A stretch of DNA of 22,327 nucleotides, from IMG/VR virus record IMGVR_UViG_3300043570_002128, positions 1 to 22,327 of that record; one strand, given 5' to 3'. This DNA comes from a virus. Of this stretch, positions 1 to 4,792 are shown piece by piece. Under the pieces are notes generated by a model. The model did not search any database and was not told the origin of the DNA. It saw only the letters and a list, made by a program, of their open reading frames with translations. Position 1 is the first letter of the stretch. Every line of letters begins with the position of its first letter. Made by a program: the position numbers and the translations under genes.

Positions 1-429
1 ATCTCCCTCAAATACCACTTGTTCACCTTCTCTAAAGAAGGATACCTCTACCTCCTTACCAATACACTCACTAATATCTTTCTTTACTTGATTCTCATAA
101 TTTTCAATAGCTTCAACAATCTTATCCCCCATCTTACACATATCGAATGTATTAAGATATAACTTAAACGATTTAGACTCTACCATAAATTCTGAATCAG
201 CAGGGCATACTATTTTTAACGTACCTGCAATAGGTAAACCGTTGTTTAGTAAAAAGGTTGCTTCGTGACAATGCCACGTATCATAACCTACAAATTCATT
301 TCCTTTAATACCCCAATCACCGCGTGCTAAAACTCTTGGCATAGGATTTAATTGACTTGGATCAAAGGTGTCTGTATAGACTGCGTATGAGTTGGCTGAA
401 CCTAGGGTTTTTGCAGCCACTTCTGACAT
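1..429 (-). CDS. queF: NADPH-dependent 7-cyano-7-deazaguanine (preQ0) reductase QueF, N-terminal half (cut by window edge)
   Basis: QueF reduces the nitrile of preQ0 to the aminomethyl group of preQ1. The reading frame starts with ATG at 427-429 and stays open for 143 codons to base 1, so the 3' end is missing. The QueF substrate motif ESKSFKLY is at residues 84-91, followed by LNTF. The preceding stretch (VGYDTWHCHEATFLL, about 47-61) and the early LGSANSY and PRVLARG segments match the N-terminal domain of the long, bimodal QueF type (E. coli YqcD), not the short B. subtilis type. In bimodal enzymes the catalytic cysteine lies in the C-terminal half, which here would be beyond the window. 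The gene starts 1 base after the dpdA-like stop codon, so the two are probably co-transcribed. A phage-borne reductase beside a base-exchange enzyme suggests that preQ1 is the base placed in DNA. Family assignment is firm; completeness and activity cannot be judged. Confidence 0.9.
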   Translation of the reverse strand, partial: MSEVAAKTLGSANSYAVYTDTFDPSQLNPMPRVLARGDWGIKGNEFVGYDTWHCHEATFLLNNGLPIAGTLKIVCPADSEFMVESKSFKLYLNTFDMCKMGDKIVEAIENYENQVKKDISECIGKEVEVSFFREGEQVVFEGD

Positions 430-430
430 A

Positions 431-1213
431 TTACTTGCTGACATAGCTTCTAAATGTTTTTATATTTTTAAAAATAAGGTTTATTTGTTCTTCTGTTAAC
501 TTAATATCTAAATTATCTGCTAATTTAACTTTTGGTTTAGGTACAGTTAAGCCATGAGGTCCTAATTCATTACCCGCCCAACCGTTAATAACTGGAGAAC
601 TAGTATCTAACGAATAGATAAGTCCTCTAAGAGCAGTACTAAGATTATTAATTAAAATAAACTCTACTGGATTTTGACAGCCTAGTAAATGAAATTTAGG
701 TAATCCAATCCCCATATTGAATCTATTTGCATACCACCAATTTAAGAATCTAAATCTTACTGTTACATAATCTGATTTTTCAATTAAGTCGAAAGGTAAT
801 GCTATAATGTCTACTCTCTCACTTAGGTAGTAGTCAATACAATCTGCAATCTGTTCGAAAGTATCTCCTTGACATACGCCGATGTACTTTTGTCCCTCTA
901 CTTTATAATTCGCTAAATATTCTTTAGCATTACTTAAAGTTTGATCGTAGTTATTAACTACATCAGGAAGTACGAGATGGGTAGGTTTATATTCCTTACC
1001 CAACTCATAAAGCTCTTCCATTGGTATAGATCTACCTAATTCAAATGCTGAATTATCTAATATAGAGTAATCGGCTGTTTTAAGCTTTTCTTTATAAAAG
1101 TCAGCATATTCTGTATCTAAGCTTAATAAATGACCTAACACATAAGGGTAATCACTTACCTCATCGTGACGGTTAAATAAAACTTTCGGTATTTCATGTG
1201 AAATTAAAGGCAT
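431..1213 (-). CDS. dpdA: DpdA-like DNA guanine transglycosylase (TGT-fold base-exchange enzyme)
   Basis: This 260-aa protein belongs to the tRNA-guanine transglycosylase/DpdA superfamily, which swaps guanine for a 7-deazaguanine. Visible landmarks: LDNSAFELG (52-60), equivalent to the DSGGFQ region that carries the general-base aspartate; LPDV (82-85), matching the substrate-recognition aspartate; GVCQG (112-116), matching G-(I/V)-x-Q-G; HLLG (175-178); and SLDTSSP (201-207), whose D203 sits where the covalent nucleophile is expected. The C-terminal CxCxxC...H zinc site of bacterial TGT is absent and the protein is far shorter than the usual 370 or so residues, as in phage DpdA proteins that act on DNA. 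It lies 3 bases after queC and 1 base before queF. Regulation is not visible. The main alternative is a tRNA-acting TGT supplementing host queuosine, which I consider less likely because of the missing zinc site and the phage context. Confidence 0.8.
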   Translation of the reverse strand: MPLISHEIPKVLFNRHDEVSDYPYVLGHLLSLDTEYADFYKEKLKTADYSILDNSAFELGRSIPMEELYELGKEYKPTHLVLPDVVNNYDQTLSNAKEYLANYKVEGQKYIGVCQGDTFEQIADCIDYYLSERVDIIALPFDLIEKSDYVTVRFRFLNWWYANRFNMGIGLPKFHLLGCQNPVEFILINNLSTALRGLIYSLDTSSPVINGWAGNELGPHGLTVPKPKVKLADNLDIKLTEEQINLIFKNIKTFRSYVSK

Positions 1214-1216
1214 AAT

Positions 1217-2089
1217 TTATTTTTTATATTCTGATAATACTTTCTCTACTTGGTTCTTTGCAAATTCCCAGCTAACAGGTCCTGTTTCGTCAGCATATGC
1301 TACCGGATCGGGACGTCCTAATTTAATAAATGCTTCAATACGTTCTACTGATGCTGCTGATTTATAATCAGAATACCAAGTACCTTCAAAGTCCGACCAG
1401 TTATGCTTAATAAAAATTGGTTTATAAGATGTATTCGTACGTTTATATACTTCATCAAAGTCTAAACCTAATGCTTCGCATGATCTCAATCCGTCTTCTA
1501 ATATCTCAAACTTAGTTACTTCTAAGTAAGGAGTATAAACCGATACTAATTCAGAATCCCAATTACCAATTTTAAATGCTTCGAAATCTGCATCTCTAAA
1601 TTCTTGACGGCAGTCAGGATAGATGGCGTGATCACCTGCATGAATACCCATTGCAATAGCTACCTCTTGACCGATAGTACAATCATCTCCAATATTCTTA
1701 GTAGCAATCGATAATGCTGCTGCTTGAATTAAAGAAGAGAAAATTTTATTACGGTTAGGAACAACAGTTGCTTTCATATTATCTTGCTCGTAATGTCCTT
1801 CTGGTACATCTGCACCGCCTGTTACTAAAGCTGAAGTTAATAATTGCTGTAATCCATCTAGCTTTATAACCTGATACTTTACTTTATGGTATGCTATATT
1901 TTCTGCTTCCGAATCATAACCATTGTTAATATACTCAACTAATGATTTTGCGCGCTCTAATTCTACTTTATGCTTTTGACCGTAATCAAAACCTAATGCT
2001 GTTACTTCATAGCCATTAACTAATAGGTGTAACAAAAGAGAGGAAGAATCCATCCCACCTGATAATGATAAAACTGCTTGTTTTGCCAT
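1217..2089 (-). CDS. queC: 7-cyano-7-deazaguanine synthase QueC (preQ0 synthase)
   Basis: QueC uses ATP and ammonia to turn 7-carboxy-7-deazaguanine into preQ0. The 290-aa product has the PP-loop ATPase motif SGGMDSS (10-16), the conserved VVPNRN (109-114) and GIHAGDHAIYPDCRQEF (148-164) segments, and a C-terminal RPDPVAYADET block, all typical of QueC. The family normally ends with a four-cysteine zinc site (T-x-T-C-Y, then CGxCxxCxxR). Here the corresponding stretches read TNTSY (218-222) and SDYKSAASVER (240-250), so the cysteines are replaced, mostly by serine. The protein is longer than the roughly 220-230 residues of bacterial QueC, with inserts near residues 50-100 and 220-240. No Shine-Dalgarno precedes the ATG. 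Function is well supported by the PP-loop and substrate motifs and by queD/queE nearby; how the C-terminus folds without zinc is unknown. Confidence 0.9.
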   Translation of the reverse strand: MAKQAVLSLSGGMDSSSLLLHLLVNGYEVTALGFDYGQKHKVELERAKSLVEYINNGYDSEAENIAYHKVKYQVIKLDGLQQLLTSALVTGGADVPEGHYEQDNMKATVVPNRNKIFSSLIQAAALSIATKNIGDDCTIGQEVAIAMGIHAGDHAIYPDCRQEFRDADFEAFKIGNWDSELVSVYTPYLEVTKFEILEDGLRSCEALGLDFDEVYKRTNTSYKPIFIKHNWSDFEGTWYSDYKSAASVERIEAFIKLGRPDPVAYADETGPVSWEFAKNQVEKVLSEYKK

Positions 2090-2151
2090 CTTATTTAAAA
2101 TTTATAATTTAGAGCGTATTATTTTGTAGATCGATTAGCTCTATAACCGAA

Positions 2152-2358
2152 TTATTTTTTATCTTCTTTACCGTTAAGGTCTTTCTGTAAAGAAAGTATT
2201 TGACTTGTTATATTTCCTACTAAAGTTCCTAACTGTGCCCAAATATCATCGCACTCTTTTTCTAGCTTCTTAATAAGTCTAAGCTGGTATATCTGTAATC
2301 CTGCAAGTATTACTATAATAACTATGTATAAATGTTCTTGTGTAAATGTAACTGTCAT
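2152..2358 (-). CDS. Small membrane protein with C-terminal coiled-coil-like segment, unknown function
   Basis: The 68-aa product is not recognised. Residues about 9-26 form one hydrophobic helix rich in I, V and L, ending in IYQLRLIKK. A charged, heptad-like region follows (LEKECDDIWAQLG, then ITSQILSLQKDL) and the tail KEDKK is highly charged. The layout suggests a single-pass membrane protein with the helix near the N-terminus and a coiled-coil tail, of the kind often seen in phage genomes (inference). It lies 12 bases downstream of the 85-aa gene and 62 bases upstream of queC, inside the deazaguanine cluster, and is probably part of the same transcript. Nothing shows whether it has any role in that pathway. 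Confidence 0.6.
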   Translation of the reverse strand: MTVTFTQEHLYIVIIVILAGLQIYQLRLIKKLEKECDDIWAQLGTLVGNITSQILSLQKDLNGKEDKK

Positions 2359-2370
2359 TAATTAAAGGTA

Positions 2371-2619
2371 TTATTTTTTATTCGTTTCAACAACTTCATT
2401 TACAAAATTAGCAAATTCTTTCGTACCTGGAAATCCAATGAAGTTAGGATTGTCCATTACCCTCTGTAATGCTTTAATAGTTAAATCTTTGTTCTTAGTA
2501 TCTACAAGTAAGGGCTCTAGAATATACTCTTCTCCTGATTCGTTTTTACGGTTTAGGTAGAATAAAGTGCCTGCTGCAGCACCTAAAGCTTGATAATACT
2601 CCTCTGCGGTAGTACTCAT
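2371..2619 (-). CDS. Hypothetical 82-aa protein in the deazaguanine cluster
   Basis: No family is recognised. The frame is open from an ATG at 2626-2628, but a second ATG three codons later (2617-2619) starts 1 base after the queE stop and avoids an overlap, so I prefer that one (82 rather than 85 aa). The product looks like a small soluble domain: an acidic, alanine-rich N-terminus (TTAEEYYQALGAAAGTLFYL), a middle ending in EYILEPLLVDTKNKDLTI, and a C-terminal helix-like segment FANFVNEVVETNKK. There are no cysteines and no membrane segment. It sits between queE and a small membrane-protein gene and is tightly packed with both, so co-expression is likely. No function can be inferred. Confidence 0.6.
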   Translation of the reverse strand: MSTTAEEYYQALGAAAGTLFYLNRKNESGEEYILEPLLVDTKNKDLTIKALQRVMDNPNFIGFPGTKEFANFVNEVVETNKK

Positions 2620-2620
2620 A

Positions 2621-3505
2621 CTATACATTTAAAGTTTTATTCCAAGCTGCAATATGCAATCTAGTTAAACCTCTAAATCTATACTTCTTAGCCATCTCCA
2701 TTACGAATCGAGTACGCTCTTCAAAGTTAGCTGCATCATCTAAACCTGGCATACAGACTACATTCTTTAAAGGTATGTTAAATGGCTCTACAAAATCTCT
2801 AAAGATCTCTTTAACATCGTCTTCAGTACTGATAACAAACTTAAATTGATAGTTACTATGCTCCATAATACGACTAATTGCTTGAGGAACAATACGTTGC
2901 TTAGCTGTCATACCTGAGTTAGCTAATTTAGGTGAGCAGTTAATTTGATTCAATAAATCAAACAGATCATTTTCAATATAGTTTGTACCGTTAGTTTCTA
3001 TCTCATTATAAAAGTTATAACTTAGTACAGGACTTTTACCTCTTACTACTCTATATCCATTAAGGTTTATCATTGAAGGGTCAGTTAATAACCAGTACTT
3101 ATGAAAATTAGCGATTGCTTCTTGATGACCCTTAATTGTTGGTTCACCACCTGTCCAAATAATATGAACTAAACCGTTTTTAATATCTTCGTATACACCT
3201 TCCTCTTTCCATCTATCAATTAGATATTGGAACTCTTTATCTTCGCCTCTCCATAACCATTGAGAAGTAGAATCACAAGTCCAAGTAGCTTTACCCTCTT
3301 TATGTAAATCCCCTTCAAAGATTTCTCCGTCTTCTAACTTTTTTTCTTTCTCTAATTGATTAGTAAACTTCCTAGACATACCACATGTTAGGTTACAAAT
3401 ACCTAAGCGAACAAAGTACGCTGGAATACCAGATGAAATACCTTCCCCTTGTACTGTATAAAAGTCACTAGTAATAAGTAACTTCTTCGGATCTATTTTA
3501 CTCAT
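2621..3505 (-). CDS. queE: 7-carboxy-7-deazaguanine synthase QueE (radical SAM)
   Basis: QueE converts 6-carboxytetrahydropterin to 7-carboxy-7-deazaguanine with a [4Fe-4S] cluster and S-adenosylmethionine. The 294-aa product shows the family's N-terminal YTVQGEG (16-22) and the FVRLGICNLTC start of the cluster motif. GGEP (119-122), ETNGT (170-174) and CSPKL (190-194) follow, all QueE signatures. The cysteines are C37 and C41, but the third (C77, in TWTCDS, equivalent to the usual W-C-D-T) is displaced by about 35 inserted, strongly charged residues. Variable cluster loops are known in QueE (for example C-x14-C-x2-C in Burkholderia), so a functional enzyme is plausible. The ATG overlaps the end of a 51-aa gene by 8 bases, and no Shine-Dalgarno is seen at its own start, so translational coupling is possible. 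Assignment is confident; the loop is the unusual part. Confidence 0.9.
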   Translation of the reverse strand: MSKIDPKKLLITSDFYTVQGEGISSGIPAYFVRLGICNLTCGMSRKFTNQLEKEKKLEDGEIFEGDLHKEGKATWTCDSTSQWLWRGEDKEFQYLIDRWKEEGVYEDIKNGLVHIIWTGGEPTIKGHQEAIANFHKYWLLTDPSMINLNGYRVVRGKSPVLSYNFYNEIETNGTNYIENDLFDLLNQINCSPKLANSGMTAKQRIVPQAISRIMEHSNYQFKFVISTEDDVKEIFRDFVEPFNIPLKNVVCMPGLDDAANFEERTRFVMEMAKKYRFRGLTRLHIAAWNKTLNV

Positions 3506-3653
3506 TAGTTACTGTTTTAGAGGTTTCTACTTTTTTAAATTGAGCTTTCCATTCAGATTTAGGTATAAACTTCCATTCCCTAGTAGCTTGTTCAGCCTTT
3601 TCATTTGTTACTCGGATAATTTCTCCGGTCTTAGAACTCTTTAAACACTTCAT
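3498..3653 (-). CDS. Hypothetical 51-aa protein with a strong ribosome binding site
   Basis: This short frame starts at ATG 3651-3653 and ends in TAA at 3498-3500, overlapping the queE start by 8 bases. It begins MKCLKSSKTGEIIRV and contains two tryptophans (REWKFIPKSEWKAQF); it is lysine-rich and ends TVTNE. The start GEIIRVTNEKAEQ resembles small phage proteins that begin with a beta-hairpin, but I cannot name a family. Support for a real gene comes from the leader GGAGGAAAAACTATG, the only clear Shine-Dalgarno sequence I saw in the window, and from the fit between its neighbours. Overlap with queE suggests translational coupling that would help queE translation (inference). No function can be given. 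Confidence 0.6.
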   Translation of the reverse strand: MKCLKSSKTGEIIRVTNEKAEQATREWKFIPKSEWKAQFKKVETSKTVTNE

Positions 3654-3667
3654 AGTTTTTCCTCCAT
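3654..3667 (-). promoter_or_regulatory. Shine-Dalgarno ribosome binding site of the 51-aa gene
   Basis: On the minus strand the sequence GGAGGAAAAACT lies directly before the ATG at 3651-3653, giving GGAGG seven bases from the start codon. Other genes in the window have A/T-only leaders, so this is an exception and supports the start chosen for the short gene. Confidence 0.5.
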
Positions 3668-3671
3668 GTTT

Positions 3672-3806
3672 TTATTTGAATAATGTCTTTATATAATTTA
3701 ATACAGGGTTAAAGGTATGCCACTCACTAAGCAAGTAAATGATACTCGGATGCTTTTCTCCACATACTCCTAACGCATGTTCTATAATATGTAAAATTTC
3801 GTGCAT
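3672..3806 (-). CDS. Hypothetical 44-aa protein with an HEILH motif
   Basis: The frame starts at ATG 3804-3806 and ends with TAA at 3672-3674. The peptide opens MHEILHIIEHALGVCGEKHPS and ends LNYIKTLFK. It contains HEILH, which fits the HExxH pattern of zinc metalloproteases, plus further histidines (H10, H19) and one cysteine (C15), but 44 residues is too short for a zincin domain, so metal binding or chance is more likely. It starts 3 bases after the stop of the 94-aa gene and ends 18 bases before the next small gene, with a typical AATAAGTTATG leader for this genome. Packing, leader and a composition unlike random translation support it as a gene. I do not recognise a family. Confidence 0.55.
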   Translation of the reverse strand: MHEILHIIEHALGVCGEKHPSIIYLLSEWHTFNPVLNYIKTLFK

Positions 3807-3809
3807 AAC

Positions 3810-4094
3810 TTATTTTTTATCTACATAATGATGTAGCTTACTTCTTAACCTATCAATTCGTATTTGACAGTACCATTTTCCCATATTGCTAGATGCATTA
3901 GCATACCTCTCTTGCCAGTACTTAATACCTTTATTAGTTTTAGCATTAGCTTCTTCTAAGTAGTCTATATCCCAATAGCTATTATTCTCTTGTATTTCTT
4001 CATCGGTAGGAATATAAGGATTTTCTTCTCTATACTCCTCGATAAGCATTTTACGTCGAGACTTCTCTTGTTTTTTTTCGAATTTCTTATCCAT
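3810..4094 (-). CDS. Hypothetical 94-aa charged protein
   Basis: The product is not recognised. It begins with a very basic stretch (MDKKFEKKQEKSRRK), turns acidic and proline-containing (EEYREENPYIPTDEEI), and ends with a basic segment (CQIRIDRLRSKLHHYVDKK). Tryptophans and tyrosines are frequent in the middle (YWDIDYLEE, KYWQERYA). There is no membrane segment. It is probably helical and may bind nucleic acid or another protein, but that is only a guess from charge. Its ATG overlaps the queD stop codon by one base (TAATG), the kind of junction seen in translationally coupled phage genes. It is followed after 3 bases by the 44-aa gene. It is therefore likely expressed with the deazaguanine genes. 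Confidence 0.6.
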   Translation of the reverse strand: MDKKFEKKQEKSRRKMLIEEYREENPYIPTDEEIQENNSYWDIDYLEEANAKTNKGIKYWQERYANASSNMGKWYCQIRIDRLRSKLHHYVDKK

Positions 4095-4561
4095 TAGCCT
4101 ATATAAATTGCTGAGTTTCTTTTATTCTCAAAAAATTCTACTTTTAAAACCTTAACGCGACCTTTCGTTTCTTCTTGTACAAAGGTGTTGATTTTACCGT
4201 AAATATATTTTGCAAATTGTTCAGCGCCTACTGGACCTTCGAGTATCCTCAACTGAACTACCTCTTTTTTATCTAATTCTTTGAAGATTTCTAGTTCAGG
4301 ATCGTCTGGTGCTAGTACTGTAGTATGGTCGAACATGTAGTCCATCCATGCTTTTGGATTCATACCATCGATATTACCCTTAGCTCTTTTCATACCACCA
4401 AAGTCCCATACCCAGTTTCTATGGTCTAACTCTCCTTCGAAAGTTACTCTAAACTCGATATCGTAGCCATGTAAGAACCTACAATGCGTTCCTTCTGCAG
4501 CCCATTGACGAAAGACGGTACTAAAGCCGTCGTATAATTTTGTTGATTGAAATGTACTCAT
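4094..4561 (-). CDS. queD: 6-carboxy-5,6,7,8-tetrahydropterin synthase QueD (PTPS family)
   Basis: QueD converts 7,8-dihydroneopterin triphosphate to 6-carboxytetrahydropterin, the first step specific to deazaguanine synthesis. The 155-aa product has the family pattern: HCRFLHGY (26-33, matching C-x3-HGH), then VTFEGELD and WVWDFGGMK (the ...G-x-xxDF-xxLK block), FDH (77-79), GAEQFAKYIYGKI (112-124, the [T/S]xE-x-LA region) and a C-terminal VEFFENKRNSAIY. The catalytic cysteine is C27. Of the three zinc histidines of bacterial QueD, only H31 is plainly kept: the FxxAH position reads FSTVF and the HGH position reads HGY. A FRQW...HC...LHGY arrangement is, as far as I recall, shared by other phage QueD-like proteins, but I cannot verify this. 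The gene follows the cysteine-cluster gene by 18 bases and overlaps the next gene by one base. Confidence 0.85.
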   Translation of the reverse strand: MSTFQSTKLYDGFSTVFRQWAAEGTHCRFLHGYDIEFRVTFEGELDHRNWVWDFGGMKRAKGNIDGMNPKAWMDYMFDHTTVLAPDDPELEIFKELDKKEVVQLRILEGPVGAEQFAKYIYGKINTFVQEETKGRVKVLKVEFFENKRNSAIYIG

Positions 4562-4579: not shown

Positions 4580-4792
4580 TTAAGTATTTTCTCTTAAATG
4601 ACCAAATTTTTCATCAAGTATTTGGTTTCCTTTTTTTGCTTTAGGAGTATATGGGCAATGTCTGCAGCCATTTCCACAGCATTGACCTCTTTGATAGAGG
4701 AAGAGAGGTGTGAAAATTACACGCTCTCCCTCTAAGTAATAATGTAGTACTTCTTGTGTACCTATATTTCTAAAATGGTTATCTTCTACCAT
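4580..4792 (-). CDS. Small cysteine-cluster protein (CCGNGCRHCPY motif, DUF5522-like)
   Basis: The 70-aa product carries CCGNGCRHCPY at residues 38-48, followed by a basic segment (TPKAKKGN). This cysteine motif is the hallmark of the DUF5522 family of small proteins of unknown function, found in Bacteroidota and other organisms. Four closely spaced cysteines and one histidine could hold zinc or an iron-sulfur centre (inference). The N-terminal part is a short domain with an EGERVIFTPLFL strand-like stretch. The gene lies 4 bases after the ribonucleotide reductase stop and 18 bases before queD, linking the nucleotide-supply and deazaguanine genes. The upstream AGGGTAAATTTATG may give a weak ribosome binding site. 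Family name is a recollection of the motif; role is unknown. Confidence 0.65.
   Translation of the reverse strand: MVEDNHFRNIGTQEVLHYYLEGERVIFTPLFLYQRGQCCGNGCRHCPYTPKAKKGNQILDEKFGHLRENT

Follow-up and report, generated by a model that had tools for sequence, protein, structure and literature searches.

In the published view, the insertion of 7-deazaguanine bases is post-replicative, and it was reportedly presented in this way by Cui et al. in 2023, who are also said to have associated DpdA3 with complete replacement of guanine, to have described a formyl-dPreQ1 base, and to have named DpdN as the predicted formyltransferase acting on dPreQ1. In the DNA of phages CP220 and CPt10, dADG replaces 100% of dG (PMC8306585), whereas the modification is partial (1.7–32% of G) in the DpdA1 phages Dp-1, Rosebush and CAjan; dPreQ1 is carried by Dp-1 and HVTV-1 (PMC6884629).

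The DNA analysed in this work (the window) is a 22,327-base IMG/VR virus fragment of an uncultured phage, in which queD, queE, queC, a dpdA-like gene and queF follow one another, in order of transcription, on the minus strand (positions 1–4561). We consider it probable that these genes belong to a pathway by which the phage makes its own 7-deazaguanine base, formyl-preQ1, and puts it in its DNA in place of guanine. The system is already of a known type, and it is the pairing of DpdA3-type enzymes with a kinase that is the part worth testing.

Gene Content of the Window and of Related Loci

The features of the module are listed in Table 1. The preliminary description of this DNA had recognized a five-gene deazaguanine set on one strand, and this is borne out both by Pfam and PHROG matches and by conservation across IMG/VR. 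Our survey of the family covered 43 IMG/VR loci in which DpdA is 68–93% (mostly 87–93%) identical to the window enzyme, and as the same genes are found together in dozens of IMG/VR contigs of this range, a chance grouping is excluded.

Table 1. Features of the deazaguanine module, with positions in the 22,327-base window.
Feature	Positions	Strand	Match or conservation
queF, N-terminal 148 residues only	1..444 (444 to contig end)	-	PF14819 (QueF_N) E 3.5e-26
DpdA3-type guanine transglycosylase, 260 aa	431..1213	-	phrog_19058 E 1.5e-26
queC, preQ0 synthase type without zinc cysteines	1217..2089	-	PF06508 E 5.1e-35
Small conserved protein, no assigned function, 68 aa	2152..2358	-	same place in most relatives
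Small conserved protein, no assigned function, 85 aa	2371..2628	-	same place in most relatives
queE, 7-carboxy-7-deazaguanine synthase	2621..3505	-	phrog_2076 E 9.3e-36
Small protein, no assigned function, 51 aa	3498..3653	-	present in many relatives
Small protein, no assigned function, 94 aa	3810..4094	-	present in many relatives
queD, 6-carboxytetrahydropterin synthase, FRQW...HGY type	4094..4561	-	PF01242 E 2.3e-14; phrog_2389 E 5.8e-40
DUF5522 gene, small, cysteine-rich, directly upstream of queD	4580..4792		near the module family-wide

The window ends inside queF, which is truncated at residue 148 with its catalytic half lying outside, and folE is absent from the window; hence the formyltransferase, the kinase and folE of the pathway proposed below were read from the relatives. 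In relatives with long enough contigs, the order of genes is queC, dpdA, queF, a PurN-like formyltransferase and a P-loop kinase, and in most of them folE and a dCTP-deaminase-like gene are present downstream of the kinase. The queF gene is complete in the relatives, folE lies a few genes downstream, and all of the genes for preQ0-to-preQ1 were found either in the window or in close relatives. In the loci L037, L038, L040, and L041, queD and queE are located downstream of the kinase, and the block from queC through dpdA, queF and the formyltransferase to the kinase is intact.

The Transglycosylase

No match to the window transglycosylase was obtained in Pfam; the PHROG family that it matches is that of CPT_0056 from CP220. 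Its AF2 model (mean pLDDT 85) retrieved 2pot (E 3.6e-6) and the DNA preQ0 insertase DpdA 7ui4 (E 1.3e-5) in Foldseek searches, and a VIA structure comparison with TGT/DpdA folds gave Z scores of 16.6–17.1 over about 230 residues. The enzyme, as modelled, is a TGT/DpdA barrel. The residues D53, D84, and D203 are invariant in an alignment of 12 divergent homologues and, judging by the order of the motifs, they would be the counterparts of the catalytic aspartates of TGT. Beyond D203, the proposed nucleophile, the protein has only 57 more residues, none of them a cysteine, and it appears to lack the zinc subdomain of TGT.

In a quick phylogenetic tree, in which long branches leave CC_R7, phiST and a few further enzymes uncertainly placed, the window transglycosylase was part of a 31-row clade (support 97) together with the enzymes of CP220 and of the Flavobacterium phage vB_FspM_immuto (hereafter immuto), and the DpdA1-type enzymes formed a separate branch (support 100). 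We take the clade of the window, CP220 and immuto enzymes to be the DpdA3 subfamily. The TGT/DpdA fold and the shared clade with CP220 uphold the earlier proposal that the phage encodes a deazaguanine route, including an enzyme of the DpdA type, whose target is most plausibly DNA. Small size was considered as a hallmark of DpdA3 and rejected, as the phiSM enzyme on the DpdA1 side is 240 aa long. Small DpdA-like enzymes from many further loci (L147–L226) were also observed to form a large and divergent group, which is apart from both the DpdA1 and DpdA3 types; many of its genes adjoin genes of the queuosine type, and a kinase is mostly not nearby, overlapping dpdA in some cases.

Unusual Features of QueC, QueE, and QueD

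The QueC from the window matches the solved QueC structure 2pg3 with an E value of 2e-12, and the SGGxDS, YxQxHxxE, VPxRN and YPDC motifs are all kept in it. The zinc motif of canonical QueC is C(x)8CxxCxxC (PMC13329287), and all four of these cysteines are replaced in the window protein and its relatives; this conclusion is based upon the published motif and the family alignment. The zinc-less QueC proteins form a clade (window; L049; L307–L386) in which the cysteines have changed mainly to serine and the phage copies keep the catalytic motifs. The clade also takes in QueC from cellular contigs that are labelled as Poseidoniales, Pirellulaceae, and Thiotrichales and show the same replacement, on account of which the idea that the zinc-less QueC is a phage invention was rejected. 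A strict link between this QueC and the formyltransferase was likewise rejected, since the formyltransferase occurs with both types of QueC.

In QueE, whose family assignment rests upon phrog_2076, the cysteines of the radical SAM iron-sulphur motif are arranged as CX3C-X35-C instead of the canonical CX3CX2C, and the three cysteines are invariant in 19 distinct relatives. A motif survey placed QueD in the FRQW...THCxFLHGY type, which seems to lack two of the usual zinc-site histidines. An ordinary HGH-type QueD occupies the same place in some close relatives (L011, L025, L026). The departures from the metal-site motifs in QueC, QueE and QueD each count against the pathway that we favour, although QueC does retain its remaining motifs.

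QueF, the Formyltransferase and the Final Base

The part of QueF that is present in the window carries the NADPH-site motif ESKSFKLY, and the catalytic cysteine belongs to the missing half. This motif is kept in the QueF of the relatives (motif survey, 23 relatives), and a full-length homolog from one of them (L007) could be aligned over nearly its whole length with the solved QueF 3bp1 (E 4e-34), including the catalytic Cys and Asp. The QueF proteins of the relatives therefore have the features of nitrile reductases, viz. the catalytic Cys/Asp and the NADPH motif, of which the window contains the NADPH-motif half only.

A PurN-like formyltransferase directly follows queF in all close relatives with adequate flanks (16/16). 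It matches Formyl_trans_N (PF00551, E 5.1e-7) as well as PurN structures in a PDB profile search (E 8.6e-15), and its residues N101, H103, and D144 are invariant. When 50,697 phage records were searched by tblastn, a full-length relative of this protein was found in immuto only. Of the 65 DpdA3-type loci that had sufficient flanking sequence, queF and the formyltransferase were both present in 50 and both missing in 13, two had queF alone, and the formyltransferase was in no case present alone; queF without the formyltransferase is seen in the related DpdA3-type loci L087 and L088. Because the formyltransferase never occurs without queF, its substrate would most simply be the amine of preQ1, and the end base is likely to be 7-(formylamino)methyl-7-deazaguanine. 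The preliminary description had regarded preQ1 as the final base, and this part of it was not supported, since the formyltransferase comes after queF in those relatives with enough sequence and is also present in the immuto cluster. The linked kinase, the grouping of the enzyme with that of CP220, and folE did not figure in that description. The cluster of the window family would presumably fit the DpdA3/DpdN/formyl-dPreQ1 system of Cui et al.

The Linked Kinase

In counts made with a regular expression, 16 of the 21 DpdA3-type sequence clusters, including both of those from the window family, had a small P-loop kinase no more than 2.5 kb away from dpdA, as against 1 of 29 DpdA1-type clusters, where the single instance was a spurious ORF (Fisher p 6e-8, by a test that ignores relatedness). 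The kinase accompanies the DpdA3-type enzymes both in loci that have queF and the formyltransferase and in those that do not, i.e., whichever base is made. Its AF2 model is nearest to the ribosylnicotinamide kinase domain of NadR (Z 16.7), with thymidylate kinases in second place (Z about 13). In some other lineages with a small DpdA, kinases of other families lie beside dpdA, namely a DNMK in Vibrio D479 and AAA_18-like proteins in phiST and L188, and thymidylate-kinase-like genes are found in this position in Youna2, BSTP12, L151, L170, L184, and L204 (identified partly by eye, with weak Pfam hits). In the divergent small-DpdA group, 12 of 51 had a nearby kinase. Some DpdA3-type loci have no nearby kinase, and none was found in the other parts of their contigs, which are fragments. 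The possibility that the kinase is exclusive to deazaguanine systems was rejected, as a similar one occurs in the Bacteroides phage DAC16, whose record yielded no QueC; MazG-like or HD-domain genes were also rejected as components shared by these systems in general, being present in a few clusters only. A linked kinase is not known to have been discussed in Cui et al. 2023.

Proposed Pathway and Alternative Explanations

From the gene content and order, the protein families and the conserved residues, as established by sequence and fold comparisons, we infer the following reactions, final base and extent of replacement. FolE, encoded downstream in the relatives, would act on GTP; QueD, QueE, and QueC would take its product to preQ0, which QueF would convert into preQ1. 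The PurN-like formyltransferase would act on the primary amine of preQ1 to give 7-(formylamino)methyl-7-deazaguanine, either before or after insertion, and the DpdA3-type enzyme would put the modified base in the place of guanine, acting either on DNA or at the level of a free deoxynucleotide. The replacement of guanine is probably extensive or complete, and by analogy with other phages (PMC6884629) it may be of benefit against restriction.

It is unlikely that the base in the DNA is simply preQ1 and that the neighbouring formyltransferase serves some other role, e.g., in purine synthesis. The QueF residues are those of the nitrile reductase set, dPreQ1 is found in Dp-1 and HVTV-1 (PMC6884629), and L087 and L088 do without the formyltransferase, all of which would agree with preQ1 as the end product, but a role in general purine metabolism would not account for the location of the formyltransferase directly after queF in the relatives, or for its never being seen without queF in DpdA3-type loci. 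Less probable still is an action on tRNA, by which the phage would boost a queuosine-type modification of host or phage tRNAs. Formyl-preQ1 is not known to be a precursor of queuosine, and the apparent loss of the TGT zinc subdomain, a clade that includes CP220 with its fully modified DNA, and the absence of tRNA genes from the window all argue against such a target, although tRNA-guanine transglycosylases are among the closest folds and a role of this kind has been raised for phages that have the pathway but not DpdA (PMC6884629).

The remaining alternative differs from formyl-preQ1 insertion as outlined above solely in the level at which the base is inserted. A DpdA3-type enzyme could carry out its exchange on the base of dGMP in free form, or of some related deoxynucleotide, and the product would be phosphorylated by the linked kinase and then incorporated by the polymerase. 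The pairing with the kinase, together with the complete replacement of dG in CP220 as opposed to the partial replacement in DpdA1 phages, makes such an exchange a real alternative to post-replicative base exchange, and we regard it as a live if tentative one, somewhat short of an even chance. It is favoured also by the retention of the kinase irrespective of queF and the formyltransferase, by the occurrence of kinases from different families in the same position in other lineages, and by the mention of a modified-dGTP route as having been proposed for Campylobacter phages (PMC6884629). However, dNMP kinases are common in phages, as the similar one in DAC16 illustrates, the kinase is not near dpdA in some of the DpdA3-type loci and in most of the divergent ones, and relatedness among the clusters is ignored by the Fisher statistic. 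Furthermore, enzymes of the TGT fold are not known to act on free nucleotides, and insertion in the published view is post-replicative.

With dozens of uncultured contigs, the window family represents a second phage lineage that is predicted to have formylated 7-deazaguanine, beyond the single cultured species found, immuto. The DpdA3–kinase pairing makes the replacement of guanine throughout a genome biochemically testable with two small proteins. If exchange takes place on free nucleotides, it would be a reaction new to the TGT fold and would offer an enzymatic route to modified dNTPs; it would explain complete guanine replacement and would contradict the view that insertion is always post-replicative.

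Comparison with Known Systems

The DpdA1-type phages (the 9g/CAjan, Rosebush, and Dp-1 groups) resemble the window in having preQ0 genes and a transglycosylase of the TGT fold, but in contrast to the window family their enzyme belongs to a separate clade, and neither a formyltransferase nor a genuine kinase lies close to it. The phages of the Campylobacter CP220 group are closer, in that they share with the window family a DpdA3-type enzyme (about 32% identical to that of the window) and an adjacent kinase of the AAA_28 type. Within about 9 kb of the CP220 dpdA, however, neither queF nor a formyltransferase was detected, and the CP220 QueC retains the zinc motif that the window QueC has lost.

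The nearest cultured relative is immuto (Immutovirus), which infects Flavobacterium. Its gene order differs from that of the window family, its formyltransferase and DpdA are only about 36% and 32–33% identical, respectively, and it has upstream a pyrophosphohydrolase gene that the window family is without. Nevertheless, as in the window family, queD, queE, folE, dpdA, the formyltransferase, the kinase and queF are all present in one region of the immuto genome; its queC, although located elsewhere, is like that of the window in having no zinc cysteines, and its DnaB helicase is 53% identical to that of the window phage.
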